Shown: one piece after another, positions 4,897 to 32,275 of the stretch
Numbering within the stretch: the first letter of the stretch is position 1
Layout: each line of letters begins with the position of its first letter
Assembly: GCA_013314735.1 (NCBI GenBank)
Contig: JABUFD010000006.1
Location: forward strand, 62,001 to 126,000
Source of the DNA: Anaerolineae bacterium
GTDB lineage: Bacteria; Chloroflexota; Anaerolineae; Anaerolineales; Anaerolineaceae
Reading direction: 5' to 3'
DNA length: 64,000 bases
The notes under the pieces: generated by a model
Told to the model about the DNA's origin: nothing
Database searches by the model: none
The model's input: the letters and a program-made list of their open reading frames with translations, nothing else
Position numbers and translations under genes: made by a program

Positions 4897-4912
4897 ATTC
4901 TGACCTGCTTTC

Positions 4913-9525: not shown

Positions 9526-9527
9526 GA

Positions 9528-10187
9528 TCAGTTAGCCTCAGGGAATATGCCGCGGTGTACCGGGCAGACATACGAAAGGTCAACCTGGCAATTGGCGGGG
9601 ATGTTTTCAGTGCTGGTGTAGCCCAGGGCGCGGAAACTGCGCCCGAGATGGCACAGCGGCAGGCCCATCACGCAGGCGAAGCAGGAATGGAATTGCTCCA
9701 CCGGGTGAAAGCCGCGGTGCTGGATGGCATACGCGCCGGCCTTGTCGAAAGGGTCGCCGGTGGCAATATACGCCTCGATCTCAGCATCGCTGTAGCTGCG
9801 CATTGGCACGGGCGCGGCGCACAGGTCCAGGTGAGCTTCATCGCCGTGGTTGAGCACGGCCAGGGCGGTATAGACGAAATGTTCGCGGCCGCGCAGGCGG
9901 CGCAGCATGGCACGCGCTTCGGCGGCGTCTGCCGGTTTGCCCAGCAATTCGCCATCATCGACCACGATCGTATCGGAGGCGAGGATGTGTTCACCGGGGG
10001 CGGCAAACGGCCGGGCGGCATGGGCTTTTTCCTGTGCCAGGCGCAGGACGTACACCTCCGGGGTTTCCCCGGGGCGGGGGGTTTCGTCAATATCGACCGC
10101 CTGAACGCGAAAATCCCAGCCGGTGAGCGCAAGCAGGCTGCGCCGGCGGGGGGAGGCCGAAGCCAGGAGGATCTTTAACGCGGTCAT
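9528..10187 (-). CDS. maf: Maf-family nucleoside triphosphate pyrophosphatase
   Basis: Maf proteins hydrolyse non-canonical or canonical NTPs to NMP plus pyrophosphate and are linked to division control. The 219-residue protein opens with LLASASPRRRSLLALTG, the substrate-binding SxSPRR signature, and carries ASDTIVVDDGELLGKP and KAGAYAIQHRG, the catalytic Asp and Lys/Gln motifs. About 25 residues after CHLGRSFRALG exceed the usual family end and show no recognisable motif. The gene starts the maf-PBP-rsgA operon. A TAAAAT box ends nine bases before the ATG, which suggests a very short leader. Assignment of the exact nucleotide preference is not possible. Confidence 0.94.
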   Translation of the reverse strand: MTALKILLASASPRRRSLLALTGWDFRVQAVDIDETPRPGETPEVYVLRLAQEKAHAARPFAAPGEHILASDTIVVDDGELLGKPADAAEARAMLRRLRGREHFVYTALAVLNHGDEAHLDLCAAPVPMRSYSDAEIEAYIATGDPFDKAGAYAIQHRGFHPVEQFHSCFACVMGLPLCHLGRSFRALGYTSTENIPANCQVDLSYVCPVHRGIFPEAN

Positions 10188-10222
10188 AGTCGCTTCATTT
10201 TAACACACTTGGCGCAGGCGCA

Positions 10223-10250
10223 GCGCGCATGAAGATACGCTCATGCGCGC
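10223..10250. repeat. Perfect 10-bp inverted repeat between maf and the reductase gene
   Basis: GCGCGCATGA (10223-10232) and TCATGCGCGC (10241-10250) form a strong hairpin with an 8-base loop. It lies upstream of maf and about 78 bp beyond the 3' end of the reverse-strand reductase gene. No U-run follows on either strand, so a simple intrinsic terminator is not supported. Confidence 0.55.
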
Positions 10251-10327
10251 CTGGCGGATGATTGCCCTGCATTCTCCCCATTTCTGCATGGCAATTTCAA
10301 GTCCCGTTGCGGAACATGCTGTACGGC

Positions 10328-11089
10328 TTATGCCGCACTTTCATCCACGATCTTGCCGGCGAATTTCCCCGCCGCCCAGCCGACAAAGCGCATGATGCCG
10401 CGCTTGAGGAAGTTGATCTTGCAGGGGTAGTAATACAGACCTTTGTCCCAACCGTGTTCGATGAAATACTTGCGGTCCTCCGGCAGGAAGGCCATCGCCG
10501 AACCCTGCTGGAGCATGAAGTTGAACAACTCCTTCAGCGAGGGGCGGTGATCGGTTCTGCTGCCTTCCACCAGCTTGAGAAAGCGGCCGAAGACCTTGCC
10601 ATTCACCGGTTTGGGGCTGGCACCCAACTGGCTGAGATGCCCGGCCGGGCGCATGCCGAGGTGGTGGGCGATTTCTTCCATATAGGCAATCCCCTTACGG
10701 TAGACGAACGGGCCTGCCGAGGTGCTCAGCACGAACACCGGCTTGCCCACCAGTTGCGGGTCAGGGCGGTGGAAGTAGGACACCAGGCGGTCAAAGACCT
10801 GCTTGAGCAGGGTGGAAACCTGCCACATGTAAATCGGTGAGGCCAGCAGGATGCCGTCAGCGGCGCGCATTTGATCCAGCAGGATTTCGATCTCATCCTG
10901 TGTTTTACAGCGGAAACCTTTTTCCACGCAGGCAGCGCAGCCGCGGCAGGGGCGCAGGTCCATTTTGGACAACTGCACGATCTCGACCGTGTACCCCGCC
11001 TCGCGCAGCGGGAGGGCGGCGCGTTCCAGCAGCGCGGCTGTGTTGCCATGCGCGCGCGGTGAACCATTGATCGCCAGGATTTGTTTCAT
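10328..11089 (-). CDS. Flavodoxin-fold NAD(P)H-dependent FMN reductase / iron-sulfur flavoprotein-like
   Basis: A 253-residue cytoplasmic protein of the NADPH-dependent FMN reductase superfamily. It begins MKQILAINGSPRAHGNTAALLERA, the FMN phosphate-binding loop. A cysteine cluster, PCRGCAACVEKGFRC, resembles the CxxC-x-C region of iron-sulfur flavoproteins, followed by ASPIYMWQVSTLLKQVFDRL, the flavin-side motif. The C-terminal third is basic and specific to a subgroup. The start at 11089 is chosen because it begins exactly at the flavodoxin fold and has CGGAG about 10 bases upstream. A longer in-frame reading would translate the neighbouring palindrome and is spurious. Substrate unknown; redox or detoxification is likely. 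Confidence 0.85.
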   Translation of the reverse strand: MKQILAINGSPRAHGNTAALLERAALPLREAGYTVEIVQLSKMDLRPCRGCAACVEKGFRCKTQDEIEILLDQMRAADGILLASPIYMWQVSTLLKQVFDRLVSYFHRPDPQLVGKPVFVLSTSAGPFVYRKGIAYMEEIAHHLGMRPAGHLSQLGASPKPVNGKVFGRFLKLVEGSRTDHRPSLKELFNFMLQQGSAMAFLPEDRKYFIEHGWDKGLYYYPCKINFLKRGIMRFVGWAAGKFAGKIVDESAA

Positions 11090-11161
11090 TTTCTCTTTCT
11101 CCGTTATTTGCTCGTTATCGTGATGAATTATACGCAGAATTTGGGGAGTTTGTTGTATCAT

Positions 11162-11194
11162 AGACTTCCGAAGTTTTAAAAACTTCGGAAGTCT
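11162..11194. repeat. Left REP-like palindrome of the RAYT unit
   Basis: Arms 11162-11177 and 11179-11194 are exact 16-bp complements around one central base. The same arm sequence recurs at the right boundary. It also lies between the divergent reductase and transposase genes. Confidence 0.85.
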
Positions 11195-11245
11195 GGGTAT
11201 ATTAAGAATCACCCACCAAAATTAAGCCGTAACGAACACACTTCA

Positions 11246-11890
11246 ATGCCTCGCCGCAATCATCCCTTTCTTCCAGACCATTATTATCATTTTTACAACC
11301 GCGGCAACAACCGGCAGGCGATCTTTTTTGAGCGGATTAATTACCTGTATTTTTTGCAAGGGATGAAAAGGTATCTCCTGCCGTATCTTGATGTCCTTGC
11401 GTATTGCCTGATGCCGACCCATTACCACCTGCTGGTGCGTGTAAAACCAGCGGACCAGACCGCCGCTGATCTACCCGGACAAGCCGTTACACTGGAAACG
11501 AACCTGCAAACCATCTCTGAGTCTGTTTCACATGCGATGCAATTATTGAGCATTTCCTATAATACTAAAGCGATCAACAAACGCTATGAACGCGTGGGTT
11601 CTCTTTTCCAGGGACAGTTTCAGGGAAAATGGGTGCCGGATGAGCGGTATTTGCGCACTTTGTGCCTTTACATCCACGCGAATCCAGTTAAGGATGCCCT
11701 TGCCGCCAACCCGGCTGATTGGGAGTTTAGCAGCCACCGCGATTGGATGCGGATGCGGGATGATGCCCTGGTGGATCGGGGAGGCGTCGAAAGGCATTTT
11801 GGAAATCCACAGGACTATCTTTCCCTGTTACAAGTGTGGATTGAAACACGCTGCGTGTCTGAACCATTGCGTCAGTACCTGGTGGATTGA
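11246..11890 (+). CDS. REP-associated tyrosine transposase (Y1_Tnp / TnpA_REP family)
   Basis: A 214-residue HUH single-strand nuclease of the RAYT family. The HUH metal-binding pair is visible as HYH at residues 59-61 (MPTHYHLLVRV). The helix with the candidate nucleophilic tyrosine is SYNTKAINKRY (Tyr105), followed by the family signature GSLFQGQFQGKWV and the YIHANPVK motif. These proteins cleave and rejoin single-stranded DNA at REP hairpins and are usually single-copy and domesticated rather than proliferating. The matching palindromes 52 bp upstream of the start and 52 bp beyond the stop support this role. No ribosome-binding site is obvious. The protein looks full length. Confidence 0.92.
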   Translation: MPRRNHPFLPDHYYHFYNRGNNRQAIFFERINYLYFLQGMKRYLLPYLDVLAYCLMPTHYHLLVRVKPADQTAADLPGQAVTLETNLQTISESVSHAMQLLSISYNTKAINKRYERVGSLFQGQFQGKWVPDERYLRTLCLYIHANPVKDALAANPADWEFSSHRDWMRMRDDALVDRGGVERHFGNPQDYLSLLQVWIETRCVSEPLRQYLVD

Positions 11891-11942
11891 GGGGATGATT
11901 GCGGTTAAGACAGATTTCCGAATATATAGACTTTCGAACAAT

Positions 11943-11976
11943 AGACTTCCGAAGTTTTTTAAAACTTCGGAAGTCT
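11943..11976. repeat. Right REP-like palindrome of the RAYT unit
   Basis: Arms 11943-11958 and 11961-11976 are exact 16-bp complements around TT, and are identical in sequence to the left palindrome arms. The -10 box of the next gene starts 4 bp after it, so the hairpin also forms the upstream edge of that promoter. Confidence 0.85.
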
Positions 11977-11980
11977 TGAG

Positions 11981-11986
11981 TACAAT
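11981..11986 (+). promoter_or_regulatory. -10 box for a leaderless APH-like gene
   Basis: TACAAT lies exactly 6 nt before the ATG at 11993, so transcription should start at or within a base of the start codon. TTTAAA at 11958-11963, 17 bp upstream and inside the RAYT palindrome, may act as a weak -35. Confidence 0.65.
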
Positions 11987-11992
11987 TATTGC

Positions 11993-12874
11993 ATGACACA
12001 CCCTCCAATTCTGATCGATACCGAGCTTGTGCGGCGGTTGGTGGCGGGGCAGTTCCCGCAGTGGGCACACTTGCCCATCCGGCCGGTTGCCAACGGCGGC
12101 TGGGACAACCGCACCTTCCACCTGGGTGGGAGCATGCTGGTGCGCCTGCCGAGTGCCGCCCATTACCGCGAGCAGGTGGCCAAGGAGCAAACCTGGCTGC
12201 CCCGCCTGGCGCCGCACCTGCCCCTGCAAATCCCGGCGCCGCTGGCGGTGGGCGAACCAGCGCACGGCTACCCCTGGGCATGGTCCATCTACCGCTGGAT
12301 TCCGGGTGAAAGCGCGCTGACCGCGGCGGTAACGGACCGCACCCGTTTTGCCCGTGACCTGGCCGCCTTCCTCACTGCACTGCAATCGATCGACACTTGC
12401 GGTGCGCCGCCGGCGGGAGAACACAACTTCTGGCGTGGCGGCCCGCTTTCAGTGTATGATCGCGAAACCCGGGACGCCATGGTGCTGGCGGGGCGGATCG
12501 ATACGGGCAGGGCGGCGGCTATCTGGGAGGCAGCGCTTGCCGCCACCTGGGAACATCCGCCGGTGTGGGTGCACGGCGATGTGGCTGCCGGGAACCTGCT
12601 GGTGCAGGACGGCAAGCTGCGTGCGGTGATCGATTTCGGCTGCAGCTGCGTCGGCGATCCCGCCTGTGACCTGGCGATTGCCTGGACGTACCTGGAGGGG
12701 GAAAGCCGTGCGGTGTTCCGGGCGGCACTGCCGCTCGATCCCGCCGCCTGGGCGCGTGGGCGCGGCTGGGTGCTGTGGAAAAGCCTGATCACCCTGGCTG
12801 GCGCGATGGATGGTGATGCGCGCGCCACCGATGCCGGGCGCGTGCTGGCACAAGTGCTGGCAGACCATTGGTGA
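11993..12874 (+). CDS. Aminoglycoside phosphotransferase (APH)-family kinase
   Basis: A 293-residue protein with the protein-kinase-like APH fold. An N-lobe ATP-binding region (residues 30-70, VANGGWDNRTFHLGG) precedes the catalytic loop HGDVAAGN (194-201, catalytic Asp196) and the metal-binding IDFG (Asp214), then SCVGDPACDLAIAW. This pattern is typical of APH relatives annotated as aminoglycoside or macrolide 2'-phosphotransferases, but many act on sugars, homoserine or unknown small molecules. Antibiotic resistance should therefore not be assumed. The ATG at 11993 has no ribosome-binding site, but a TACAAT box ends 6 nt upstream, which fits a leaderless mRNA. It directly follows the RAYT unit. 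Confidence 0.88.
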   Translation: MTHPPILIDTELVRRLVAGQFPQWAHLPIRPVANGGWDNRTFHLGGSMLVRLPSAAHYREQVAKEQTWLPRLAPHLPLQIPAPLAVGEPAHGYPWAWSIYRWIPGESALTAAVTDRTRFARDLAAFLTALQSIDTCGAPPAGEHNFWRGGPLSVYDRETRDAMVLAGRIDTGRAAAIWEAALAATWEHPPVWVHGDVAAGNLLVQDGKLRAVIDFGCSCVGDPACDLAIAWTYLEGESRAVFRAALPLDPAAWARGRGWVLWKSLITLAGAMDGDARATDAGRVLAQVLADHW

Positions 12875-12912
12875 AAGCGGCAGCAATTCGCTGTCACGGG
12901 ACCACGATGATA

Positions 12913-12941
12913 TTGTATCCATGCCGTTTGGCCGCTACAAT
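12913..12941 (+). promoter_or_regulatory. Promoter for the Cys-rich protein gene
   Basis: TTGTAT (12913-12918) and TACAAT (12936-12941) are separated by 17 bp. The mRNA would have a leader of about 25 nt carrying the GGAGG ribosome-binding site of the gene at 12974. Confidence 0.7.
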
Positions 12942-12973
12942 GAAAGAACAAACCATTTCATCTGGAGGAAGCA

Positions 12974-13639
12974 ATGGCAAAAGAAAGCTGGATTGAACGC
13001 CTGGGGCGAAGCCTCGATGACGCTGGCGGGGAGACGCTGCGCCGGGAGATCATCGGTGATGGTGCCGGGTTGACCTCTGCCTCCAACCCTGGCGCCAAGG
13101 CGCGCTGGGCTGCGGAGATGATCGAGCGGATGCAGGTCCATTTTGATGCAGAGCAATGCCGGCAAATCATGAGCCGCTGCTCCTGTGCCTTTTCCCAAAG
13201 CCTGATCCGCCAATTTAAGCAAGCCTATACTGCCGGCGGGGGATTGGCAGATGTGGTCGAAGCCATGCGCGCTGAGCAAAGGGAAAGCATCATCAAAAGC
13301 CTGGGTTCGGATGCAGCGTTGATCCAGTTGGCAGAAAATGAGCGTTTTATGCACAGCCCCGAAGTGTGCGAAGATGGCAGTATCCTGCATACGGGACGGC
13401 CGTATCATCCGAAGGCATATTTGTTGGCGAGTGATGAACAGGGCAGGCGTCAGCACATGTGCCATTGTGGATGGATCAACGGTAGTAAAGGCGAAATTCC
13501 AGTTGCTTTTTGCGGCTGCGGCAGTGGTTTTTACCGTATTTTATGGGAAAGCCTGCTGGATGCGCCGGTGACAGTGACCGTGGAAAGCACCGTATTCAGC
13601 GGCGGAAAGTACTGCCAGATGCGTATTAACCGTTCCTGA
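12974..13639 (+). CDS. Conserved cysteine-rich protein of unknown function (DUF6144-like)
   Basis: A 221-residue soluble protein without signal peptide or membrane segment. Its cysteines occur in clusters: DAEQC near residue 56, SRCSC, PEVC, HMCHC, FCGCG, and KYCQMRI at the C-terminus. The terminal strand pattern (VESTVFSGGKYCQMRI) recalls the ends of V4R-like or L-2-amino-thiazoline hydrolase-like domains, and the overall Cys pattern recalls DUF6144. Neither identity is certain. The Cys pairs suggest metal or cluster binding. A strong GGAGG ribosome-binding site precedes the ATG, and the gene has its own promoter at 12913-12941. Function unknown. Confidence 0.75.
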   Translation: MAKESWIERLGRSLDDAGGETLRREIIGDGAGLTSASNPGAKARWAAEMIERMQVHFDAEQCRQIMSRCSCAFSQSLIRQFKQAYTAGGGLADVVEAMRAEQRESIIKSLGSDAALIQLAENERFMHSPEVCEDGSILHTGRPYHPKAYLLASDEQGRRQHMCHCGWINGSKGEIPVAFCGCGSGFYRILWESLLDAPVTVTVESTVFSGGKYCQMRINRS

Positions 13640-13733
13640 CCGGGCGAGAAGGGCAACAGCGGGAAACCGGCCAGCTGTTCTTCCGGCCAGATTGGCGGAA
13701 TGAAAAGGGCTGACCTGAAAGGAGACGTATACG

Positions 13734-14312
13734 ATGTCAACCCGTTACGCAGAATGTATGACCGGGTGGAAGCCATGGATGAAGGAATACCGGTATGGGA
13801 TTGTGCTGATCATTCCGCCGGAACCCCATCGGGCGGTTGTCAATGCGCTTCGGCGGGTGTATACCTGGTCACAGGGGTCGGAGTGTGATGCGCATATCAG
13901 CCTTTCAGTGCCGGCGGCCGGCCCGGTAAATGCCATCGATCTGCTGGAACTGGAAGATATGTTGGCGGGTTTCGAACCGTTTCTGTTGCACTATGGCCCC
14001 ATCATCACCGGGGGCGACGGGCGGGGGATTGTCCTTGATATCCAGCCGCAGGAGGTCCTCAACCGCCTGCTCCCGCTGGTTGAAGGCACGCGTATGTTCC
14101 AGGGCGCGCCGGAACGGAAATGGCCTTTTTCAGCACACATGACCATCGCGGAAATTCTCACCATACCCCAATCGCTGGAATTGCGCAGCCAGCTCTCAGA
14201 CCTGAACCTGTCGGGCAGTTTCCGGGTGGATCATCTTTCGTACATTGTGCCGGATGAGAATTTTGCCTTCACCGAACGGGCGAAAATCAAGGTCGGGCGT
14301 GATTGCCGGTAA
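13734..14312 (+). CDS. 2H phosphoesterase / 2'-5' RNA ligase-like protein
   Basis: A 192-residue protein with the two HxS/T motifs of the 2H phosphoesterase superfamily: AHISL (His54, Ser56) and AHMTI (His134, Thr136), spaced 80 residues apart as in YjcG/LigT-type proteins. Members hydrolyse or form cyclic 2',3'-phosphates in RNA or nucleotides, but most bacterial members have no proven substrate. The ATG at 13734 follows AGGAG with a spacing of eight bases. A second in-frame Met at residue 9 is possible. The gene lies 21 bp before an MFS transporter gene that has its own -10 box, so co-transcription is not needed. Confidence 0.85.
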   Translation: MSTRYAECMTGWKPWMKEYRYGIVLIIPPEPHRAVVNALRRVYTWSQGSECDAHISLSVPAAGPVNAIDLLELEDMLAGFEPFLLHYGPIITGGDGRGIVLDIQPQEVLNRLLPLVEGTRMFQGAPERKWPFSAHMTIAEILTIPQSLELRSQLSDLNLSGSFRVDHLSYIVPDENFAFTERAKIKVGRDCR

Positions 14313-14322
14313 GGGTTTGTAG

Positions 14323-14328
14323 TACAAT
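14323..14328 (+). promoter_or_regulatory. -10 box for a leaderless MFS gene
   Basis: TACAAT is separated by exactly 6 nt from the ATG at 14335, and there is no ribosome-binding site. This is the same geometry as at 11981, 18789 and 58350. Confidence 0.65.
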
Positions 14329-14334
14329 CCGGGT

Positions 14335-15621
14335 ATGGAAGAAACGAAAGTGGAACACACGCCGGCACCCGACCGCGGCTGGCTGAAACTGTATATTCCC
14401 CTGTTTGTGGGGCAGATCTTTTCCCTGCTGGGCAGCACGCTGGTGCAGTTCGCCATTGTGTGGTGGCTGACCGAAACCACCGGCTCCTCCGCCATCCTCG
14501 CCAGCGGGACAATCGCGATCATCGTACCCGGCGCGCTGCTGGGGCCGTTCCTCGGTACGCTGGTGGACCGCCTCGACCGCCGGCTGGTCATGATCGCCAA
14601 CGATACCATCATCACCCTCGGTACGATTTTCCTGATGCTGATGTTCTGGCTGGATCTGATTCAGGTGTGGCATGTGTTTGTGGTGTTTGGCCTGTCTTCG
14701 CTGATGGGGAGCATGCAGTGGACCGCCAACACGGCCGTGATGAGCACGATTGTACCGGATACGCAGCTGCAGCGTGTGCAGGGCATCACCACCACCCTGC
14801 AGGCGGCAGTGCATATTGCCGGTCCGCCGCTGGGCGCGCTGCTGATGGGTCTGCTGCCGGTGTACGGCGTGCTCGCGATTGATGTGGTTACGGCTGTGAT
14901 CGCAATTGTGATCCTCAGCCTGCTGCGATTGCCAAAGGTGGTTCGGCACGATGAAGGCGCTGTCACCCCGCGCCGCATGTGGACTGATTTTAAGGAAGGA
15001 CTGCGTTTCATCCTTGCCTGGCGCGGGCTGTTCTACGTGATCATCGGCTTTGCCCTGATGAACGCCATCCTTGAGCCGATCTTCACCTTTTTCCCGCTGC
15101 TGGTGACGCAATATTTTGGGCTGGGCGCGTTGGAACTGGGCAGCATCAACGCCGCCTGGGGGCTGGGGATGGTGGCGGGCGGGCTGCTGATGAGCGCGTG
15201 GGGCGGATTCAAGAAGAAGGTCAATACGATGATCATCGGCAACCTGGTGATGGGCCTCTTTCTGGCGATCGTGGCGGCAGCCGCACCGCACCAATTCTGG
15301 CTGGCGCTGGTGGGCATTTTCCTCACCGCCTCGGCCAACCCGATGAACAACGCCGCTTCGATGTCGCTGCTGCAAAGCCGCGTGCCCAAACACTTGCAGG
15401 GGCGGGTGCTTTCCCTGGCGAGCAGCATGGTAACGATCACGATCCCGATCTCGCTGGCGATTGCCGGGCCGCTGGCGGAGGTGACCGGGGTGCATCCCTG
15501 GTACTGGATTGGCGCGGTGGGGATGATCGTGATCAGCGTGGCATTCCTGTTGATGAAGCCGATCCGCACGATTGAGGAGCAGGAACTGCCCGAAACCTTT
15601 CGCGCAGTGGCAGCGGAGTGA
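14335..15621 (+). CDS. MFS transporter, macrolide-efflux (DHA3)-like
   Basis: A 428-residue integral membrane protein with about twelve hydrophobic segments. The inter-helix 2-3 loop GTLVDRLDRRLVMIANDT is the conserved MFS motif A (G-x3-DRxxRR). The overall layout, with a short cytoplasmic N-terminus (TPAPDRGWLKLYIPLFVGQIFSLLGSTLVQFAIVWWL), is that of the MFS_3/DHA3 group, often annotated as macrolide or multidrug exporters. The substrate cannot be read from sequence. The mRNA is predicted to be leaderless from the TACAAT box at 14323-14328. The downstream region holds two large inverted repeats before recA. Confidence 0.9.
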   Translation: MEETKVEHTPAPDRGWLKLYIPLFVGQIFSLLGSTLVQFAIVWWLTETTGSSAILASGTIAIIVPGALLGPFLGTLVDRLDRRLVMIANDTIITLGTIFLMLMFWLDLIQVWHVFVVFGLSSLMGSMQWTANTAVMSTIVPDTQLQRVQGITTTLQAAVHIAGPPLGALLMGLLPVYGVLAIDVVTAVIAIVILSLLRLPKVVRHDEGAVTPRRMWTDFKEGLRFILAWRGLFYVIIGFALMNAILEPIFTFFPLLVTQYFGLGALELGSINAAWGLGMVAGGLLMSAWGGFKKKVNTMIIGNLVMGLFLAIVAAAAPHQFWLALVGIFLTASANPMNNAASMSLLQSRVPKHLQGRVLSLASSMVTITIPISLAIAGPLAEVTGVHPWYWIGAVGMIVISVAFLLMKPIRTIEEQELPETFRAVAAE

Positions 15622-15737
15622 GATACGGCCGCTGAGGCAGGGGCAGGCTTGCCTGTGCTGCATGCGTGAAACCGTATCCGACAAGGGGAGCCGCTTTCCT
15701 TAACTTTTTCGGGGGCTGCTGCGTAACTTCTGAACCA

Positions 15738-15801
15738 CCATCCCGGAGGCAGGGAGTTACGCCGCCTGGGTTCGTGACCGGAATACCTGCCTCCGGGATG
15801 G
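15738..15801. repeat. 16-bp inverted repeat downstream of the MFS gene
   Basis: CCATCCCGGAGGCAGG (15738-15753) and CCTGCCTCCGGGATGG (15786-15801) are exact complements separated by 32 nt. No T-run follows the arm on either strand, so a standard terminator is not supported. It may be an RNA structure or a mobile-repeat remnant. Confidence 0.7.
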
Positions 15802-15896
15802 GATGGCGGAGGTGAGTGTGGAATGTTTGACCGGAACAAAAATGCACGCGCCGCTTTTTAGGTTAGCATGGCTGGTGTTACACTATTGGACTTATG

Positions 15897-15953
15897 TCCA
15901 GGATCGGGGATGGTTTGTACCAGTACAGGCGGCCTCACATCCCCGGTCCTGGA
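15897..15953. repeat. 16-bp imperfect inverted repeat upstream of recA
   Basis: TCCAGGATCGGGGATG (15897-15912) and CATCCCCGGTCCTGGA (15938-15953) pair with a single mismatch. The 25-nt loop itself contains the small palindromic element TGTACCAGTACA. The region lies between the MFS stop and the recA promoter. No gene is seen between 15622 and 16197 apart from these structures and the recA promoter. Confidence 0.65.
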
Positions 15954-16077
15954 TATGATACGACGATGCCACATTAACTGGGGCGGTTGGAACCCAAAAA
16001 GCAGACCATAGGGAAAAAAGGAAAGTGCTGTTCCGAAATGCTGGTTTCCTTGCAATTCGTCCCGAATCTTGCCATAA

Positions 16078-16098
16078 TTGACAATAGTACCCTGTCAA
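16078..16098. promoter_or_regulatory. TTGACA/TGTCAA inverted repeat upstream of recA (candidate operator)
   Basis: TTGACA and TGTCAA are complementary half-sites separated by 9 bp, about 28 bp upstream of the recA -10 box. Neither the Gram-negative nor the Bacillus-type SOS box is seen. A LexA-like or other regulator could bind here, but this is speculative. Confidence 0.35.
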
Positions 16099-16122
16099 AT
16101 AGTAGCAATAATAGAACAAATA

Positions 16123-16131
16123 TGCTATAAT
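16123..16131 (+). promoter_or_regulatory. Extended -10 promoter of recA
   Basis: TGCTATAAT is an extended -10 element (TGn-TATAAT). No strong -35 lies 17 bp upstream (TAGCAA). The predicted leader is about 60 nt and contains the AGAGGAG ribosome-binding site. Confidence 0.65.
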
Positions 16132-16197
16132 GAATACCTGTACCCGGAAAACAACCGCGGCGGCCGCGGAGATGGATTGACCCAAGAGGAGAAAACA

Positions 16198-17304
16198 ATG
16201 GCCAAGAAAAAAACCACCACGTTCCAGGGGTTCGCCCTGGAAGGAACCGAAGGACAGCAGGATGAAGCCCGCCGCGCGGTGCTCGACAAAGCTCTCGGTG
16301 ATATCACCAAACGCTACGGCGACGGCGCCATCATGCGCCTGGGCGAGGCCAAGCACCTCAACGTGGAAGCCATCCCCACCGGCTGCCTCTCGATCGATAT
16401 CGCCCTCGGCGTGGGCGGCATCCCACGCGGGCGCATCACAGAAATCTACGGACCGGAAGCCTCCGGCAAGACCACCCTGTGCCTGCACGTGGTGGCCGAA
16501 GCACAGAAGATGGGCGGCACGGCTGCCTTCATCGATATGGAACATGCCCTCGACCCGGTGTATGCCGCGCGGGTGGGCGTTAACATTGATGAACTGCTGA
16601 TCGCCCAGCCCGATACCGGCGAACAGGCGTTGGAAATTGCAGAAACCCTGGTGCGCTCCGGCGCGGTGGAAGTGGTGGTGATCGACTCGGTCGCTGCCCT
16701 GGTGCCGCGTTCTGAAATCGAAGGGGATATGGGTGATGCCTCGATGGGCATGCAGGCGCGCCTGATGTCACAGGCGTTGCGCAAGCTCTCCGGTGCCATC
16801 AACCAAACCCGCACCGCCGTGATCTTCACCAACCAGCTGCGCCAGAAGATCGGCGTGATGTTCGGCAACCCCGAAACCACTTCGGGCGGGATGGCGCTCA
16901 AGTTCTACGCCTCGATGCGCATTGATGTGCGCCGCATCCAGTCGATTAAGATGGGCGCCGAGATCATCGGTAACCGCGTGCGCGTCAAGGTGGTCAAGAA
17001 CAAGGTCGCGCCGCCCTTCCGCACCGCGGAATTCGATATCATGTACAACGAGGGCATCTCCAAGGTCGGCGACCTGATTGACCTGGGCACGCAGCTTGAT
17101 GTGATCTCAAAACGCGGTTCGTTCTACTCCTACGGCGAAATCCGCCTGGGCCAGGGGCGCGAGAATACCAAGGAATTCCTCAAACAGAACCCGGATATCA
17201 TGCAGGAAATTGAAGGCGTGGTGCGCGAAATGGCGATCAACGGCCTTGACCTGGGGTTTGACATGAGCGACGAGGACAGCGATTCTTTCGGGGATGATGA
17301 GTAG
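16198..17304 (+). CDS. recA: Recombinase RecA
   Basis: RecA forms ATP-dependent filaments on single-stranded DNA, carries out strand exchange, and triggers LexA self-cleavage. The 368-residue product begins [16 protein letters not shown] and has an N-terminal helix, Walker [10 protein letters not shown] (85-93), the [16 protein letters not shown] Walker B region, the L2 loop and [20 protein letters not shown], and an acidic C-terminal tail ([12 protein letters not shown]). The N-terminus is about 15-20 residues longer than in Escherichia coli RecA. The ATG at 16198 has AGAGGAG eight bases upstream, which rules out an upstream in-frame TTG. A terminator follows the stop. It is apparently monocistronic. 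Confidence 0.98.
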
Positions 17305-17348
17305 TTCCGCGGAGATCACTGGAAACCAGGGTCATCACTGGAATAGAG

Positions 17349-17398
17349 GACACCGGGCTGTCGATGCCGAACGCATTTTCCACCCGGTGTCTTTTTTT
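17349..17398 (+). terminator. Intrinsic terminator of recA
   Basis: GACACCGGG (17349-17357) pairs with CCCGGTGTC (17383-17391), followed by a run of seven T. It lies 45 bp after the recA stop. Confidence 0.85.
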
Positions 17399-17439
17399 GG
17401 ATTTCTGTACCGTGAACCGCCGCGGGAATCGTTGGCCGG

Positions 17440-18090
17440 TTACTGCTTCACTTCCTGCCCGGCGGTGTTGCCGGGGATGAAGCCTTCCAGGTGCTGCGCG
17501 CTGGCGGCGCGCACCCACACCTCATTGCCCAGTTTCTCGCTTTTGCCCAGTTCGAGGATGGAACCCTTTGGCAGGGTTTCCAGCACCGGGCTGTTCTTGT
17601 CGGGCTGGCTGTAGAGGTGGGTTTCCTTTTGCAGGGTTTTCCATTGGCGCAGGATGGGCGTGGAGCCGGGGATGTAGGCCTTCTGGTCCCCGCCCAGCAG
17701 TACCACGGACCACACCATGCCGCCCACGTTTTTGTTGTTGGCGGAAAGGGTCAGGCTGTCGCCGCGCTGTTTGACGGCCACCACCGGGGATTGCAGCCCG
17801 GGTTCCTGGTACAACCGGGTTTCCTCCGCCAGGCGCACCGTGGCCTTGCCGCCGGCGGCCTGCGCGATCATCACCACGTCATACACCGTCCAGGCGGCGA
17901 TGAACAGCAGGAAGATACCCTGGCTGAGCGCTATGCCGAAGAAAGTGATCTGGCCGCCCTGGGCATAGGCATCCAGGCCCCAGATCCCAATCCCAACCGT
18001 GATGGCCAGCCCGGCAACCGCGCCCCACAGGCGGCTCTTGCTGGAAATGAACCATTGCACCAACACAGCCCCTAAAATGACAAAATTCAT
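17440..18090 (-). CDS. Membrane protein with two bacterial SH3-like domains
   Basis: A 216-residue protein with three N-terminal membrane segments (residues 1-15, 22-40 and 50-75) followed by an extracytoplasmic region. That region holds two consecutive SH3b-type modules: ETRLYQEPGLQSPVVAVKQRGDSLTL and ETHLYSQPDKNSPVLETLPKGSILELG. SH3b modules bind peptidoglycan or metal, or act as protein-binding adaptors. The start at 18090 follows an AAGGAG ribosome-binding site. It is convergent with recA and stands alone. The specific role is unknown; a cell-wall-associated function is inferred. Confidence 0.75.
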   Translation of the reverse strand: MNFVILGAVLVQWFISSKSRLWGAVAGLAITVGIGIWGLDAYAQGGQITFFGIALSQGIFLLFIAAWTVYDVVMIAQAAGGKATVRLAEETRLYQEPGLQSPVVAVKQRGDSLTLSANNKNVGGMVWSVVLLGGDQKAYIPGSTPILRQWKTLQKETHLYSQPDKNSPVLETLPKGSILELGKSEKLGNEVWVRAASAQHLEGFIPGNTAGQEVKQ

Positions 18091-18297
18091 GGCAACACTC
18101 CTTGGTGAAATTGTGAATGATTCCGTGTCCCCTCCTTTAATAAGTATAGGCCGTTTGGGGCAGGATGCAAGAAATCAATCCCCGTTCTGCATGTACTGGC
18201 GAGGTGCGGCTTTGCGGGAAATGTGGTATTACTATCGTATCAAGCAATCCTGCCGTCGGGCGGGAATCCCAATATGGAGCTATCGAGGAGGTCATTG

Positions 18298-24750: not shown

Positions 24751-25020
24751 ATGATCCAGTACTCAAGTAAGGAAGCCCGTCAGAATTGGCGGAAGATCCT
24801 CGATACCGTGCTGCGGCGTGAAAGCGATGTGTTGATTGAACGCAACGGAGAACCCATCGCAGTCATCCTGCCCGTTGCCGATTATGCCTTCATCCGTGAA
24901 GCCCTGGTGGACTATCGGGATGGGTTGGAAGCCGACAGTATTTACCAGGCGTGGAAAGCGGGGCAGGAGGAATCCCTTTCCATCTCCGAAGCGATGAGGG
25001 AAATGGGATTGGATGAATGA
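24751..25020 (+). CDS. Type II antitoxin, Phd/YefM family
   Basis: An 89-residue protein with the Phd/YefM N-terminal DNA-binding domain (YSSKEARQNWRKILDTVLRRESDVLIERNGEPIAVILPVADY), in which the SxxEARxNW segment and the R-N-G-E-P-I-A-V turn are diagnostic. The C-terminal 30 residues (EESLSISEAMREMGLDE) form the toxin-neutralising tail. It binds and neutralises the RelE-like toxin encoded next, and probably represses the operon through the inverted repeat at 24695-24729. Its stop overlaps the toxin start as ATGA, the usual translational coupling in type II modules. An AAAGGA site precedes the ATG. Confidence 0.9.
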   Translation: MIQYSSKEARQNWRKILDTVLRRESDVLIERNGEPIAVILPVADYAFIREALVDYRDGLEADSIYQAWKAGQEESLSISEAMREMGLDE

Positions 25021-25436
25021 GCTACCGTGTTGAAATTACCCGGCAGGCGCTGAAACACATCAAAAAGTTACCGAAACCACTGGTTCAGCGGCTGCTGCTG
25101 GCTGCCCGTGCGCTGGGAGAAAACCCGCGGCCGGATGGGGTTCGTAAACTGCGCGGTTTTGACAATTACTACCGCATCCGTGAAGGGGATTGGCGCATTA
25201 TATACACCATCGAAGATGAAACCCTGTTGGTACTGGTAATCACGATCAAACCCCGTGGTGAAGCATACAAACAGTTTAAGGAAGCAGGAGGTGTATATGC
25301 TGTTGAATCATATAATTGCAGTGATATAGCGGGGCGGGAAGATCGGCGAGGCGTCAGTATATTCCGTGTATTACCCGACCTATTTCATTTCGTGTGGTTG
25401 GAACCCCTGGTTGCGTCTAGGTTGTGTTTCCAGTAA
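25017..25436 (+). CDS. RelE/ParE-family toxin with an unusual C-terminal extension
   Basis: A 139-residue protein whose first 88 residues form a RelE/ParE fold: MSYRVEITRQALKHIKKLPKPLV, then LRGFDNYYRIREGDWRIIYTIEDETLLVLVITIKPRGEAYK. The normal family ends at about this point, after the R-x-E-x-Y-K motif. Here roughly 50 further residues (QFKEAGGVYAVESYN onward) look unlike a domain and probably arise from loss of the original stop or a frameshift near 25265-25280. RelE-type toxins are ribosome-dependent mRNA interferases, while ParE-type toxins poison gyrase; the sequence fits RelE better. Whether the extended toxin is active is unknown. The start overlaps the antitoxin stop. Confidence 0.82.
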   Translation: MSYRVEITRQALKHIKKLPKPLVQRLLLAARALGENPRPDGVRKLRGFDNYYRIREGDWRIIYTIEDETLLVLVITIKPRGEAYKQFKEAGGVYAVESYNCSDIAGREDRRGVSIFRVLPDLFHFVWLEPLVASRLCFQ

Positions 25437-28174: not shown

Positions 28175-28203
28175 TTGAAATCCCAATTTGCATGTTGTAT
28201 ACT
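28175..28203 (+). promoter_or_regulatory. Promoter for a leaderless ATPase mRNA
   Basis: TTGAAA (28175-28180), 17 bp, TATACT (28198-28203), then 6 nt to the ATG at 28210. Complete -35, spacing and -10 elements support initiation at the start codon itself, and favour ATG 28210 over the in-frame TTG at 28192. Confidence 0.75.
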
Positions 28204-28209
28204 GGTTAT

Positions 28210-29385
28210 ATGATAAAGCGACAAATCCGCTCATCCATTCAATCGTTAAGTCAGAAATATCCGGTTATTTCCATTACCGGACCCCGCCAGAGTGGAAAGA
28301 CAACCCTGGCACGGGCGTGCTTTCCGGATCATCAATATGTCAATCTCGAAAGCCTGGACCTGCTGCAGGCGGCACAGGATGACCCGCGTTCCTTTTTACA
28401 GTTGAACAGCGGGAAGAAAATGGTGATCGATGAAATCCAGAAATTCCCGGATTTGCTCTCCTACATCCAGGTGGAGGTCGACCAGCAAAAAATCACCGGG
28501 CAATTTGTAGTCACGGGTTCGCAGCAATTTGCCCTCAATGAACACATCAGCCAATCCCTGGCTGGGCGTTCGGCGAATTTCACCTTGCTGCCCTTCTCTG
28601 TAGCGGAATTGTCGGCTTCGGGTATCTTGCAGGATCATTATGAGTGGATGCTGAAGGGATTCTACCCTCGAATTTATAATCTGGAACTTTCACCAACTGA
28701 TTTCTACCGTGACTATGTGTTTACGTATGTGGAACGCGACTTGCGCCAGATTCGGAACATTGGCGATCTCAGCACCTTTCAACGCTTCATGCAGTTGCTG
28801 GCGGGGCGTGTTGGGCAGATTGTGAATCTATCTTCGCTCGGTAATGATGTTGGCATTGATCATAAAACCATTCAGTCCTGGATCGGTGTGCTGGAAGCCA
28901 GTTACATCGTTTTCCGCCTGCCGCCGTATTTTGAGAATTTTGGCAAGCGCATCATCAAGAACCCCAAGGTTTTCTTTTACGACACCGGCTTATTGTGCTA
29001 CCTGCTGGGCATCGAGAGCACCAGCGAACTCGACCGGCATTTTGCAGTGGGGAGCATCTTCGAGAATTTCATCATCAGCGAGGTGCAAAAAAGTATCTTC
29101 AACCAGCGTGCCATCGGACGCCTGTATTTCTGGCGCGACAGCAACGGCAACGAGGTCGACCTGATCATCGACCGGGGACGGGTCAAGCGCGCGGTGGAGA
29201 TCAAGCTGGGCAGCACCTATTCCTCTTCGATGCTGAAAGGCCTGAAGTTCTGGCACAACCTGCTGCCGCCGGACCAGCAGGACAACGTTTTGGTGTACAC
29301 CGGTGAAATGACCCCCGTGATCCAGGATGTGCAGCTGTGCAACTGGAAGGATTTTGTGTTGGAGCCGATAGTGAAAAACGATTAG
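28210..29385 (+). CDS. AAA_14 / DUF4143 ATPase
   Basis: A 391-residue P-loop ATPase of the AAA_14 plus DUF4143 type. Walker A is GPRQSGKTT (24-32) and Walker B is MVIDEIQKF (near residues 69-77), followed by sensor-1 VTGSQQF. A linker DFYRDYVFTYVERDLRQI precedes the DUF4143 winged-helix part and the C-terminal nuclease-fold-like motif FWRDSNGNEVDLIIDRGRVKRAVEIKLG (D...ExK). Such proteins are abundant and mobile in bacteria and archaea, and their function is largely unknown. The ATG at 28210 is chosen from the promoter geometry. It lies immediately upstream of the A+T-rich islet, but its base composition resembles the chromosome. Confidence 0.88.
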   Translation: MIKRQIRSSIQSLSQKYPVISITGPRQSGKTTLARACFPDHQYVNLESLDLLQAAQDDPRSFLQLNSGKKMVIDEIQKFPDLLSYIQVEVDQQKITGQFVVTGSQQFALNEHISQSLAGRSANFTLLPFSVAELSASGILQDHYEWMLKGFYPRIYNLELSPTDFYRDYVFTYVERDLRQIRNIGDLSTFQRFMQLLAGRVGQIVNLSSLGNDVGIDHKTIQSWIGVLEASYIVFRLPPYFENFGKRIIKNPKVFFYDTGLLCYLLGIESTSELDRHFAVGSIFENFIISEVQKSIFNQRAIGRLYFWRDSNGNEVDLIIDRGRVKRAVEIKLGSTYSSSMLKGLKFWHNLLPPDQQDNVLVYTGEMTPVIQDVQLCNWKDFVLEPIVKND

Positions 29386-29542
29386 AAGTAAACTTAACAA
29401 AATAGCAAATTTTGACTCAACATGTTTAGACGCTTTAATTCAGGTATATGCAGTAGTTAGTTTCACCAAAAGTTATTTCGAAGATAAAAAAAGGTGATAT
29501 TCCCTTGGTCTATAAAATTTTCAAAGGTTATTGGGTGAAAAA

Positions 29543-30139
29543 ATGATTCCAGATTTTCCTCGGGAAAAAGAAAAGTTAATGGAAATTTTTAATTCTTACC
29601 TAGTTGATAAGATCAACGAGTTACTAGGATTCTGGTGTGCAACCCCAAAACACGTGAATCATGAGGGTGACAAGTGGAAACTGATTAGATCAGATGGTAC
29701 TGGAGAGATTCATTCTTACAATACAGTTGAAGGATTGATGACAATTCAAAAGGGAGATGTTTCTTCTCTCACTTCCGATACTATTCGTGAAAAGCTAGAT
29801 GAAATTGCAAACAATATGGTGCGTCAAATAACTCAAAAAATGTTTGAAGAAATAGAAAGAGTTACGCATGAAGTCGGTAATGAAATCAATGCAAATGGAC
29901 AAAGTTTAAGCCCAAATCTTTTTTTGCAGATGCTAGAAAAAATTGATATGACATTTGATGAGAAGGAGGATTGGAATCCACCAACAATGTTCATATCACC
30001 GGAAATGTGGGAAGCAAATAAAGAAAACTTTCAATCATGGGAGAATGATAAGGAATTTTTAGCCAAGAGAGACGAAATAATTAGAAGAAAGAAAGAAGAA
30101 TGGCGTGATCGAGAGAATTGTCGAAAATTGGTTGACTAA
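29543..30139 (+). CDS. Unrecognised A+T-rich islet protein A
   Basis: A 198-residue protein of no recognised family. It begins MIPDFPREKEKLMEIFNSYLVDKINELLG, is highly charged, and has no signal peptide or membrane segment. Helical segments with coiled-coil character occur around residues 75-105 (TIREKLDEIANNMVRQITQ) and at the C-terminus (LAKRDEIIRRKKEEWRDRENCRK). A central aromatic motif, WNPPTMFISPEMWEANKENF, may be useful for searches. It overlaps the next gene by 35 bp. Codon use and A+T content differ sharply from the surrounding genes, which points to horizontal transfer. The ATG at 29543 is preferred to an in-frame TTG at 29531. Confidence 0.75.
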   Translation: MIPDFPREKEKLMEIFNSYLVDKINELLGFWCATPKHVNHEGDKWKLIRSDGTGEIHSYNTVEGLMTIQKGDVSSLTSDTIREKLDEIANNMVRQITQKMFEEIERVTHEVGNEINANGQSLSPNLFLQMLEKIDMTFDEKEDWNPPTMFISPEMWEANKENFQSWENDKEFLAKRDEIIRRKKEEWRDRENCRKLVD

Positions 30140-31757
30140 TGTTAATGAAAAATCGTTTCAAATTCCTTTTTGTCAGATGCTTATTGGAGAAGGTTACCAA
30201 GTTATTCACCTAAGTCGGCATGGTTCATTTGAAGAAGGGAAAGATGTTTTAGCCATTGCTCCTGATGGTATACCTTGTGCGTTTCAGCTTAAAGGAGTAA
30301 AAGGAAAAAAAATTTCTCAAACAGAATGGTCAACGTATCATGATCAGATAATACGCTTAATAGAAACTCCCATTAAGCATCCTTCGATTGGTGAAACGCT
30401 AGACCGAAGGGTTTACTTTGTCACAAATGGCGAGTTGGATGAAGAGGTTCGGGTTGAAATAACAAACCAGAATCCTGATAGGGTACGAAGAAAACTGCCT
30501 GAACTGAAAACAATCTTAAAAGGAGAATTAACAACCAGGTTTAATAAGTTGCATACTAACTTATGGCCGATTGAACTTCAATCTGAAAGAGATCTACTGG
30601 AGCTGTATCTTGCGGACGGAACAGGTTATTTAGACAAAGCAAAATTTGCGGGATTGATGGAAAGTATAATATTGAGCATAGATGATCCTAAACAAGTTGA
30701 TGGCCAAAGGCTGCTTGCGAGCGCGGCGTTATTTGCTTCATTTGCGTTATATCCATTTAGTCAAGTAGAAAACTATATTGCTGTTATTGAAGGATGGACA
30801 ATTTTTATTGCATATATAACATCATTTATTGAGAAGTATCGATTGACTAAAAAATATTGGGGAGGAACAATTCAAATTGCTGAAGAGGCTATCGAGATTG
30901 CATTAATAAATTTGTGGGAAGAGGTTAAAAACCTTGAGTATATAGTTGCAGGGGATGCATTAGCCGATCAACCGTTTTATAAAGGGCGATTAACTTGGAT
31001 TACCGGTTACATTTCCTCTCTTGTTCTTTGGCAAAACGGGAATATATCTAATGTTGCTCCTCCAGAAGATTTTTCTGATTTTCTGTTAAAAAATTTAAAT
31101 GAGTTGCATCTTTGGGGAGAAGCCGCAATTCCTCAGTTTCTTTCAATTGTGTGGGCCTTAAGAAATATCGATCATCAATATCTTTCAGATCGGTTGTTAT
31201 ATTCCATTTATCAAGGCACTCTTGCCAAAACTATATCTAGCGAAGGTCTTCCGGATCCATATCATAATCTAGGTGAAGTTACATTGGCTTTTTCAAATCT
31301 TTCTGATTTATTGGTCAAGGAAAATTTTTCAGGAAGGTCATATTATTTGGATTCACTGATTCAGTTACTTGCGAGATATGAATATCGTGGAGTGTTGGCA
31401 GAAGACTGGAAGAAAATAACTTCTGTTCAATTTTCGGAATTTGAACCAGAAAACTCTTGGCAATTTTGCTTCTGGCATTGTGAGGATGGTGTTCTTCATG
31501 TAACTCTGCCAAAAAAACCTCAAAGTTGGCAAAATCTTTTCGATCATTCCATGGAAGTTCAGGTTCATAAAATCCCCTCTTATTTTGTGTCTAATCCTGT
31601 ACTTTTATTAATCTTTCTTATGGTATTTCCTCATAGGATTCGTCCAGACGTGATCAAATTCCTGGATGAGGCTTTTGTTAAAAATTCGTTGATGGTGAAA
31701 AATTGTTACAAATCAGAAAAAGGTACCAGAACAAACCAGATGGAGACAATTCAATGA
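30105..31757 (+). CDS. Mrr-like PD-(D/E)xK domain protein, A+T-rich islet protein B
   Basis: A 550-residue protein from a GTG start at 30105, with GAAAGAAGA upstream. The first 70 residues look like a restriction-endonuclease fold of the Mrr type: helix FQIPFCQMLIGEGYQVIHLSR, then EEGKD (Asp47) and the strand CAFQLKG (Gln61, Lys63), which together give the D...QxK active-site pattern. The remaining 480 residues are mostly helical, with hydrophobic stretches (LLASAALFASFALYPF, NPVLLLIFLMVF), and show no known family. It overlaps islet protein A by 35 bp, so the two are one unit. DNA cleavage or defence is a plausible inference, not shown. Its stop overlaps the PPOX gene start as ATGA. Confidence 0.72.
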   Translation: MIERIVENWLTNVNEKSFQIPFCQMLIGEGYQVIHLSRHGSFEEGKDVLAIAPDGIPCAFQLKGVKGKKISQTEWSTYHDQIIRLIETPIKHPSIGETLDRRVYFVTNGELDEEVRVEITNQNPDRVRRKLPELKTILKGELTTRFNKLHTNLWPIELQSERDLLELYLADGTGYLDKAKFAGLMESIILSIDDPKQVDGQRLLASAALFASFALYPFSQVENYIAVIEGWTIFIAYITSFIEKYRLTKKYWGGTIQIAEEAIEIALINLWEEVKNLEYIVAGDALADQPFYKGRLTWITGYISSLVLWQNGNISNVAPPEDFSDFLLKNLNELHLWGEAAIPQFLSIVWALRNIDHQYLSDRLLYSIYQGTLAKTISSEGLPDPYHNLGEVTLAFSNLSDLLVKENFSGRSYYLDSLIQLLARYEYRGVLAEDWKKITSVQFSEFEPENSWQFCFWHCEDGVLHVTLPKKPQSWQNLFDHSMEVQVHKIPSYFVSNPVLLLIFLMVFPHRIRPDVIKFLDEAFVKNSLMVKNCYKSEKGTRTNQMETIQ

Positions 31758-32275
31758 CCGATCGCAATCCAATTGACACCAGGAATCTTGATATCTACGG
31801 CAATCCCCCGCTGCCGTGGAGCCGGCCGCGTGACTTGTTGGCGGCGGCAATCTTCTTTGGCAGGCCGGCGTTCCTCGGCACCGTACGGCCGGATGGCCGC
31901 CCCCATGCTGCTGCCATCGCGCCCTTGTGGCTGGCGGGGGAGATCTATTTCACCAGCGGCCCGGGGACGCGCAAGGCGCGCGACCTGGCGCACAACCCGG
32001 CCTGTACGCTCTCCGCCAGCCTGGCCACGATCGACCTGGTGCTGGAAGGCGAGGCGCTGCGGGTGACCGATGCGCCGACGCTGGAACGGCTGGCGGCACG
32101 CTGCCGGGAAGGCGGCTGGCCGGTGCAGGTGGCGGGAGATGGTTTTACCGGCCCGTACAGCGCACCGAGCGCCGGGCCGCCGCCATGGCACCTCTATCGC
32201 TTCCGCTTTCACACTGCCATCGGCAATGCCACGGCTGAACCGAACGGGGCAACCCTGTGGCGTTTTGAATGCTAG
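31754..32275 (+). CDS. Pyridoxamine 5'-phosphate oxidase-related (PPOX) flavoprotein
   Basis: A 173-residue split-barrel flavin- or F420-binding protein. Residues 30-90 (AAIFFGRPAFLGTVRPDGRPHAAAIAPLWLAGEIYFTSGPGTRKARDLAHNPACTLSAS) are the typical PPOX core with cofactor-contacting positions at TVRPDGRPH and TGPGTRKA-like loops. The substrate is not determinable; relatives include F420-dependent reductases and heme-degrading enzymes. The ATG at 31754 has GGAG eight bases upstream and overlaps the stop of the A+T-rich islet gene (ATGA). The gene itself is G+C-rich, so the islet probably inserted directly upstream of a resident gene. Confidence 0.85.
   Translation: MTDRNPIDTRNLDIYGNPPLPWSRPRDLLAAAIFFGRPAFLGTVRPDGRPHAAAIAPLWLAGEIYFTSGPGTRKARDLAHNPACTLSASLATIDLVLEGEALRVTDAPTLERLAARCREGGWPVQVAGDGFTGPYSAPSAGPPPWHLYRFRFHTAIGNATAEPNGATLWRFEC

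Follow-up and report, generated by a model that had tools for sequence, protein, structure and literature searches.

The present analysis concerns a 64,000-nucleotide (nt) stretch of DNA from an Anaerolineae bacterium (GenBank assembly GCA_013314735.1, contig JABUFD010000006.1, positions 62,001 to 126,000 of the forward strand), which we will refer to as the window, and in particular two overlapping genes, A and B, that lie in its segment 29390-31757. The features of this locus are summarized in Table 1. As described in an initial annotation, made from the letters of this segment, the two genes encode proteins of 198 and 550 residues and overlap by 35 nt, and these values proved to be exact when the open reading frames (ORFs) were confirmed. 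An alternative in-frame start for gene A, a TTG codon at position 29531, would give a protein of 202 amino acids (aa). The same annotation had described the islet as sharply A+T-rich from hand counts of 21 G or C in 60 bases at 29581-29640 and 43 in 60 at 12121-12180, both of which are correct. The G+C content of the segment is 35.6% vs. 58.5% in the remainder of the window, and no comparable stretch occurs outside 28-33 kilobases (kb), where the lowest G+C content of any stretch of equal length is 45.7%.

Table 1. Positions in the window of genes A and B, of their predicted or conserved parts, and of the two adjoining genes.
Feature	Position	Strand	Basis and remarks
Gene A	29543..30139	+	198 aa, ATG start; ORF and translation; small helical partner protein (predicted)
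Gene B	30105..31757	+	550 aa, GTG start; ORF and relatives; OloB-related nuclease-type protein (predicted)
Double-coding overlap of A tail and B start, 35 nt	30105..30139	+	+1 frame common to 19/19 loci
Conserved basic C-terminal tail of A, residues 170-198	30050..30136	+	K183 and R194 invariant in an 18-row alignment including Sulfitobacter
Predicted PD-(D/E)xK (Mrr-like) nuclease domain of B, ~residues 1-130	30105..30494	+	Mrr_cat in relatives, Foldseek, VIA-align
Putative active-site codons D47, Q61 and K63 of B	30243-30245, 30285-30287, 30291-30293	+	Alignment
Helical C-terminal region of B, ~residues 131-550	30495..31754	+	Low-confidence model; shared with OloB and weakly with the Sulfitobacter caspase-type protein
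Upstream neighbour, AAA_14/DUF4143 ATPase gene	28192..29385	+	Pfam and PADLOC; candidate PDC-S01, E 2e-102; context, outside the pair
Downstream gene	31754..32275	+	Overlaps the B stop by 4 nt (ATGA); context

When the A and B proteins of the window were compared with the Pfam, PADLOC and NCBIfam libraries, no credible family was detected for either of them. Gene B is present as a single copy in its own 4.09-megabase genome, and in single-sequence and profile searches of 400 genomes from the same phylum, including nine other genomes of the same family that gave no match, a full match for B was observed in its own genome alone. A search for relatives of A gave one of 106 genomes from the phylum, which was again its own. 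Lesser matches were discounted, viz. one of the B profile in genome G340, which was a short N-terminal match within a 552-aa frame whose 18 nearby frames held no relative of A (best E 0.6), and those of A in 24 more genomes of the phylum (E <= 0.1), which were mostly matches of residues 47-126 to long frames, with more than one in many of the frames, and were read as reflecting helix composition. On a plasmid of Rhodococcus qingshengii, however, a relative of B annotated as 'restriction endonuclease' is preceded by a gene for a 195-aa hypothetical protein, and the overlap between the two is also 35 nt. With the Rhodococcus B protein as query, 17 further loci were identified in genome contigs, and these, together with the window and the Rhodococcus locus (L002), comprise the 19 loci considered below. 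According to the titles of their records, the 17 loci belong to Acidobacteria (seven loci, L013, L015, L016, L017, L020, L026, and L029, the last from Bryobacterales), Paenibacillus and Bacillus (L014 and L018, the latter from Bacillus sp. T33-2), Actinomycetes (L019, L022, and L027, the last from Micromonospora), Chloroflexi or Anaerolineales (L021, L023, and L025), Ignavibacteria (L024), and Bacteroidetes (L028). No relative was detected in viral contigs (five scans) or in phage records queried with B and with an A relative, where a match of one A relative (E 1, in a 24-aa frame) was discounted. Plasmid searches with four more A proteins led only to the Rhodococcus record, to a Sulfitobacter record described below, or to nothing, and matches of A on Vibrio and Alteromonas plasmids were discounted as they sit in unlike proteins.

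Co-occurrence of A and B in other genomes was looked for, and all 19 loci hold both of them, with a relative of A located 5' of B at each of the 18 loci besides the window. At every one of the 19, the first codons of B lie within the conserved 3' end of A, and the two genes stand in the same +1 frame relation. The overlap is of 32 nt in 11 loci, 35 nt in three, 41 nt in two and 44 nt in three, when the B start is placed at an NTG codon in a conserved column (in Rhodococcus, one codon earlier). Because the relatives keep both the pair and the frame of its overlap in 19 of 19 loci, A and B are genes rather than chance frames, and a double-coding overlap of 32-44 nt has been maintained across distant lineages. 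Among 294 neighbouring frames that were compared, A and B recur in 11 to 17 other loci, and every other frame recurs in at most two. The initial annotation had taken the overlap to suggest a stoichiometric pair, and the pairing itself is conserved. The alignments of B used here were made without L029 and, where scripted, also without L022, and those of A without L013 and L014, with L015 kept in some of them as an open 3' part.

The N-terminal domain of B is, as judged from its sequence relatives and predicted fold, a nuclease domain of the Mrr/PD-(D/E)xK type in which the active-site pattern is present. The initial annotation had proposed this type of domain from residues D47, Q61, and K63, all of which are found in B, and its assignment is supported by several comparisons. 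The Pfam family Mrr_cat matches 11 of the 18 members of the B family at E <= 0.1 (that of the window is not among them), and for the Rhodococcus protein the score of 22.8 bits lies above the curated cut-off of 21. In the AlphaFold2 model of B, residues 11-120 are better modelled than the protein as a whole, with a predicted local distance difference test score (pLDDT) of 51 to 79 per block of ten residues. The top Foldseek matches of this domain are weak ones to NucS/EndoMS (probability 0.91-0.99, E 0.12-0.29), and in VIA-align its closest likenesses include MspJI (Z 6.2, root-mean-square deviation 3.2, 110 residues aligned), FokI (Z 6.1, 4.1, 114), Hjc (Z 5.7, 3.6, 89), and Cap4 (Z 5.6, 3.9, 106), where Z-scores at these levels may, according to the warning of the tool, only reflect a common arrangement. 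Residue D47 is invariant across the aligned B rows and in three of three OloB proteins (see below), and the family motif is FQxK. The model, with modest confidence, places D47 in a strand of residues 46-51, and Q61 and K63 in one of residues 57-65. In the window B the motif can be placed on Q61/K63, followed by a short insertion, but both alignments put K66 in the lysine column. The family lysine of the window B is thus ambiguous between K63 and K66, and K63 is favoured because the predicted strand spans residues 57-65. The conservation expected for the three residues in the initial annotation was in this way seen for D47 and for the motif, with the register of the lysine left ambiguous. In its D...QxK pattern and fold matches, the N-terminal part of B resembles the Mrr-type endonucleases and the PD-(D/E)xK superfamily in general, from which B differs by the addition of a C-terminal region of about 420 residues, predicted to be helical, and by its conserved partner A. 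A search of the PDB sequences with B gave no match, and the top fold matches of the helical part, Get4 among them and with Z values as high as 8.2, were not used, as they involve low-confidence residues. A second gene with an Mrr_cat domain (968 aa, E 3.4e-8) is present near the pair in Micromonospora (L027, 3572-6475).

Protein B, in which no family had been recognized earlier beyond residue 70, proved to belong to a family with kinship to OloB, one of the proteins of the anti-phage system Olokun. The PADLOC model for OloB (PDLC03926) matches 13 of the 18 B proteins at E <= 0.1 (best E 1.1e-12), and when it was aligned with eight B proteins five of them matched, one over residues 8 to 439 of 529. 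Comparison by hhalign of the B family with three OloB proteins gave a probability of 98.7 (E 2.5e-16) over 430 columns. The relative found for the B family outside the first 70 residues is therefore OloB, rather than a housekeeping family. Olokun is named in PMC10121019, and a 2026 review places it among the systems of unknown mechanism (PMC12926258). In the open-licence literature, at a level below full text, we found no paper naming OloA or OloB in this sense or a pair like A-B, and the names and the characterization of Olokun used here are those of the PADLOC models and of the loci fetched with them. The A-B pair resembles Olokun in that both are formed by two overlapping genes, the second of which encodes a nuclease-like N-terminal domain with a conserved D and K followed by a helical remainder. 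The first gene, however, is different. At the three OloB loci, which contain good matches to OloB and are from the phylum of L028, the upstream gene encodes a protein of 530, 690, or 636 aa and overlaps OloB by 4 nt, in contrast to the 32-44 nt between A and B; these genes were taken to be OloA by their position and size, without a scan with the OloA model. Protein A is of about 200 aa, whereas the OloA model has 596 positions, and no kinship between A and OloA could be detected. The hhalign probability of A with the genes before OloB at these loci was 0.6, none of 17 A proteins matched any model of PADLOC-DB 2.0.0, OloA included, at E <= 0.1, and the OloA model (PDLC03925) gave only weak matches at E <= 1 in seven of 16 genomes (the window's own and those of all related loci except L002, L022, and L029), none of them beside the pair. 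Additionally, five regions around OloB matches contained no relative of A (best E 0.076 in 340 frames). As the partner of B differs from OloA, the A-B pair falls outside the definition of Olokun and is, on these comparisons, a sister of that system.

Protein A was earlier described as lacking a recognizable family, and this holds for the libraries searched: the A family is without a clear match in Pfam, PADLOC, and PHROGs (17 members) and, for the window A, in NCBIfam. A search of PDB sequences with A led only to myosin-V, at E 0.045 or worse, and neither PDB nor BFVD gave a fold match at E <= 0.001, the highest Z in VIA-align being 3.1. The initial annotation had proposed that A is coiled-coil-prone; in its model (mean pLDDT 76.3) A is mostly helical but not simply a coiled coil, and a helix of residues 6-28 is followed by a hairpin, a single long helix of 34 residues (78-111), and C-terminal helices. 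Conservation in this family is seen at G112, in the basic tail, which includes K183 and R194, and, in most rows, in a stretch resembling FDxDGxP.

A tblastn search with the window A (E 5e-3) led to a gene for a 205-aa protein on a plasmid of Sulfitobacter pontiacus, and a one-sequence search indicated that this protein is a relative of A (59.9 bits, E 1.2e-20). Its gene overlaps by 4 nt with the next one, which encodes a 637-aa protein whose N-terminal part matches plasmid proteins that, in the best 30 of 82 records (E <= 1), are mostly annotated as 'caspase family protein'. With the B profile, the C-terminal 397 residues of this protein reach 13.1 bits, whereas none of 500 shuffles exceeds 1.9 and no neighbour protein apart from B exceeds 1.4 (of the 155 frames scored, all with at least 250 aa, 18 are B). 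When they were compared by hhalign with the C-terminal region of B, a score of 33.7 was obtained across 239 columns, where 60 shuffles reach at most 21.5. In the plasmid record (CP144550.1) the pair is present twice (L084 and L098), with 100% identity and 331,180 bases apart in a total of 349,750; at this distance 13,523 of 14,570 positions are identical without gaps, and the similarity seems to cover about 18.6 kb at both ends of the circular record. The second copy is best read as an end redundancy of the assembly, and the Sulfitobacter pair is therefore counted as one case. The N-terminal part of the 637-aa protein resembles the caspase-family proteins of plasmid TIR-caspase operons. It differs from these in that the six caspases fetched are of 324-332 aa, with an annotated TIR-domain gene adjoining in five of six, and the six regions contained no relative of A (best E 0.49 in 373 frames). 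The tail of A is basic in Sulfitobacter although it is hardly double-coding there, and it is thus not merely a by-product of the overlap. This tail bears upon the possibility that A and B form a restriction-type enzyme, which would cut DNA on a sequence or modification signal in the manner of Mrr and other type IV-like enzymes, with the basic tail of A aiding DNA recognition. The presence of Mrr_cat in the relatives and a fold match to MspJI, which is a modification-dependent enzyme, would agree with such a role, but Pfam finds no DNA-recognition domain in A or B, and the pairing of an A relative with a caspase-type protein fits poorly with DNA recognition alone, so that we consider this explanation improbable.

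In view of the kinship of B with OloB and of the different protein that accompanies A in Sulfitobacter, we regard it as probable that A and B constitute a two-gene defence unit related to Olokun, in which A and the helical region of B form a sensing core and the N-terminal domain of B is an exchangeable effector. The two proteins would act as one self-contained, translationally coupled immune unit, with B as the effector carrying the predicted nuclease domain and the large helical region. Protein A may bind this helical region and either hold B off or complete it until an infection signal arrives, upon which the nuclease would cut DNA and the invader or the infected cell would be stopped. Sensing and assembly would thus lie with A and the helical region, and the N-terminal domain could be exchanged, being of the nuclease type here and of the caspase type in Sulfitobacter. 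The suggestion of an anti-phage or anti-plasmid system, made earlier, gains in part from the conserved pair and from the relatedness of the B family to a protein of Olokun, and the defensive function itself is one that we infer; neither the Olokun kinship, the differing partner, nor the caspase-type variant had been noticed at that time. The existence of an Olokun relative whose partner has a third of the size of OloA, and of a form with a caspase-type protein, suggests how interchangeable weapon and sensor are divided among the parts, and the pair offers a compact system for biochemistry. A broader interpretation, which we put forward tentatively and regard as possible rather than probable, is that an immune module not described before has A, a protein without a clear match in the libraries searched, as its common core, joined via the shared helical region either to a PD-(D/E)xK-type nuclease (in six lineages by record titles) or to a caspase-type protein (in Sulfitobacter), with Olokun as a sister branch that employs OloA instead.

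A small upstream protein, a larger nuclease-type protein and a tight overlap between their genes are also what would be expected of a toxin-antitoxin unit, in which B is a nuclease toxin, A an antitoxin directly binding to it, and the unit mainly maintains itself instead of sensing phage. The sparse distribution of the pair, with a full match in its own genome alone among the 400 of the phylum, and its two plasmid occurrences (Rhodococcus and Sulfitobacter) would be consistent with this. However, the usual toxins are far smaller than B, the kinship of the B family with OloB, from an anti-phage system, extends over most of the protein, and the presence of an A relative beside another type of effector suits the role of a sensor or adaptor better than that of an antitoxin to one toxin. 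A toxin-antitoxin function is for these reasons unlikely, in our estimate, in comparison to the Olokun-related defence unit. As a two-protein unit with a nuclease effector and, as proposed, a restraining partner, this unit is analogous in function to Hachiman, the HamAB nuclease-helicase complex described in PMC12278908; the likeness is functional only, and A, unlike a helicase partner, has no helicase or ATPase domain by Pfam.

The surroundings of the pair were scanned with ten proteins, picked by eye, per library (PADLOC and Pfam, nine proteins being common to both). The Bacillus locus L018 contains an apparent defence island (8661-18206) with DRT3a (E 1.3e-73), DRT3b (E 3.5e-136), a Schlafen group 3 helicase, and a NERD protein. 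Other neighbours include GmrSD_N in L025, an FRG/PDC-S15 protein about 4.3 kb away in L016, and in Rhodococcus a helicase matching PDC-M23B (E 7.1e-60) and HamB (E 3.8e-55); in the window, the AAA_14/DUF4143 gene that PADLOC lists as candidate PDC-S01 is directly upstream of the pair. In PADLOC, two of the ten proteins gave no match and two a marginal one, and in Pfam two of ten gave none. Known defence genes are thus present near the pair at several loci, but L021, L023, L024, and L026 lie among ordinary, housekeeping-like genes. In two of the Chloroflexi loci (L021 and L025) the pair adjoins, on different sides, the 3' end of a mutually matching gene, which we take to be a ribonucleotide reductase, and this is possibly a shared insertion spot.

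A number of points weigh against a defence unit of the kind proposed. The loci with ordinary surroundings are among them, as is the choice of the scanned neighbours by eye. Gene A is shortened or interrupted at three of the 18 other loci, viz. L013, L014 (read as a frame change), and L015. In L022 the frame of B changes close to the start of the gene, and L029, which lies at a contig end, contains no more than 94 residues of it. The B protein of the window itself has no match to Mrr_cat in the Pfam scan or to the PADLOC OloB model, and its AlphaFold2 model is poor as a whole (mean pLDDT 54.6). The caspase-type partner is known from one case, in which the hhalign probability of the C-terminal match is weak (22.5). 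Lastly, the pairwise distances of A and B are correlated (Mantel r 0.80, with none of 9999 permutations as high, n=14), which speaks in favour of a pair that diverges jointly, but such a correlation could also be expected from shared host ancestry. The housekeeping-like genes at some loci, together with the repair nucleases NucS/EndoMS as the top Foldseek matches, would agree with a non-defence function, i.e., a DNA-repair or regulatory nuclease with a NucS-like fold that has spread by horizontal transfer. This is very improbable given the kinship of B with OloB, the sparse occurrence of the pair in distant lineages with no match in the nine other genomes of the same family, and the defence genes that adjoin several copies.

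In the boldest form of the broader interpretation given above, for which only faint hints were obtained, A would resemble a part of a phage capsid protein and sense capsid assembly by mimicry. This idea arose because of the order of elements in the A model and a coat-protein match in BFVD (template modelling scores 0.49/0.53, probability 0.66, E 0.71). Among the PHROG major head models, one of 17 A members matched at E 0.0029 and the window A at E 0.086. Comparison of A with the capsid proteins of the siphophages HK97, phiC31, and D3 gave hhalign probabilities of at most 0.3, within the range of shuffles, and comparison with seven capsid-like proteins from the order of the host gave a probability of 1.8 with a score of 24.0 over 122 columns, where 40 column shuffles reach at most 19.8. 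These seven proteins had been found with the phrog_1650 model, in seven of 151 genomes, whereas phrog_247 gave a match in none of 151, where no control matched either. Seven genomes of the host's family (L074-L080) carry a frame of 636-704 aa matching PHROG 1650 (major head protein), two of which resemble, on inspection by eye, a fusion of a phage protease with a capsid protein.

With regard to mobility, the description of the islet as a possible mobile system was not supported. By eye, no integrase is present among the neighbouring frames of the window, no relative was detected in the phage and viral collections, and the islet is flanked by one repeat only, an imperfect 22-nt pair (82%) that lies within the neighbouring genes. 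The downstream gene has no counterpart at the other A-B loci in the comparison of neighbouring frames. Its relatives occur in seven of 61 genomes of the order, including its own, and all others have at most 46% identity; because they are so distant, no empty site could be read from them. Elsewhere in the window, two more A+T-rich stretches with 43-48% G+C are present at 3001-5000 and 11001-12000, and two small overlapping genes are found at 24751-25436, which resemble genes for a YefM/Phd-type antitoxin and a RelE-type toxin.

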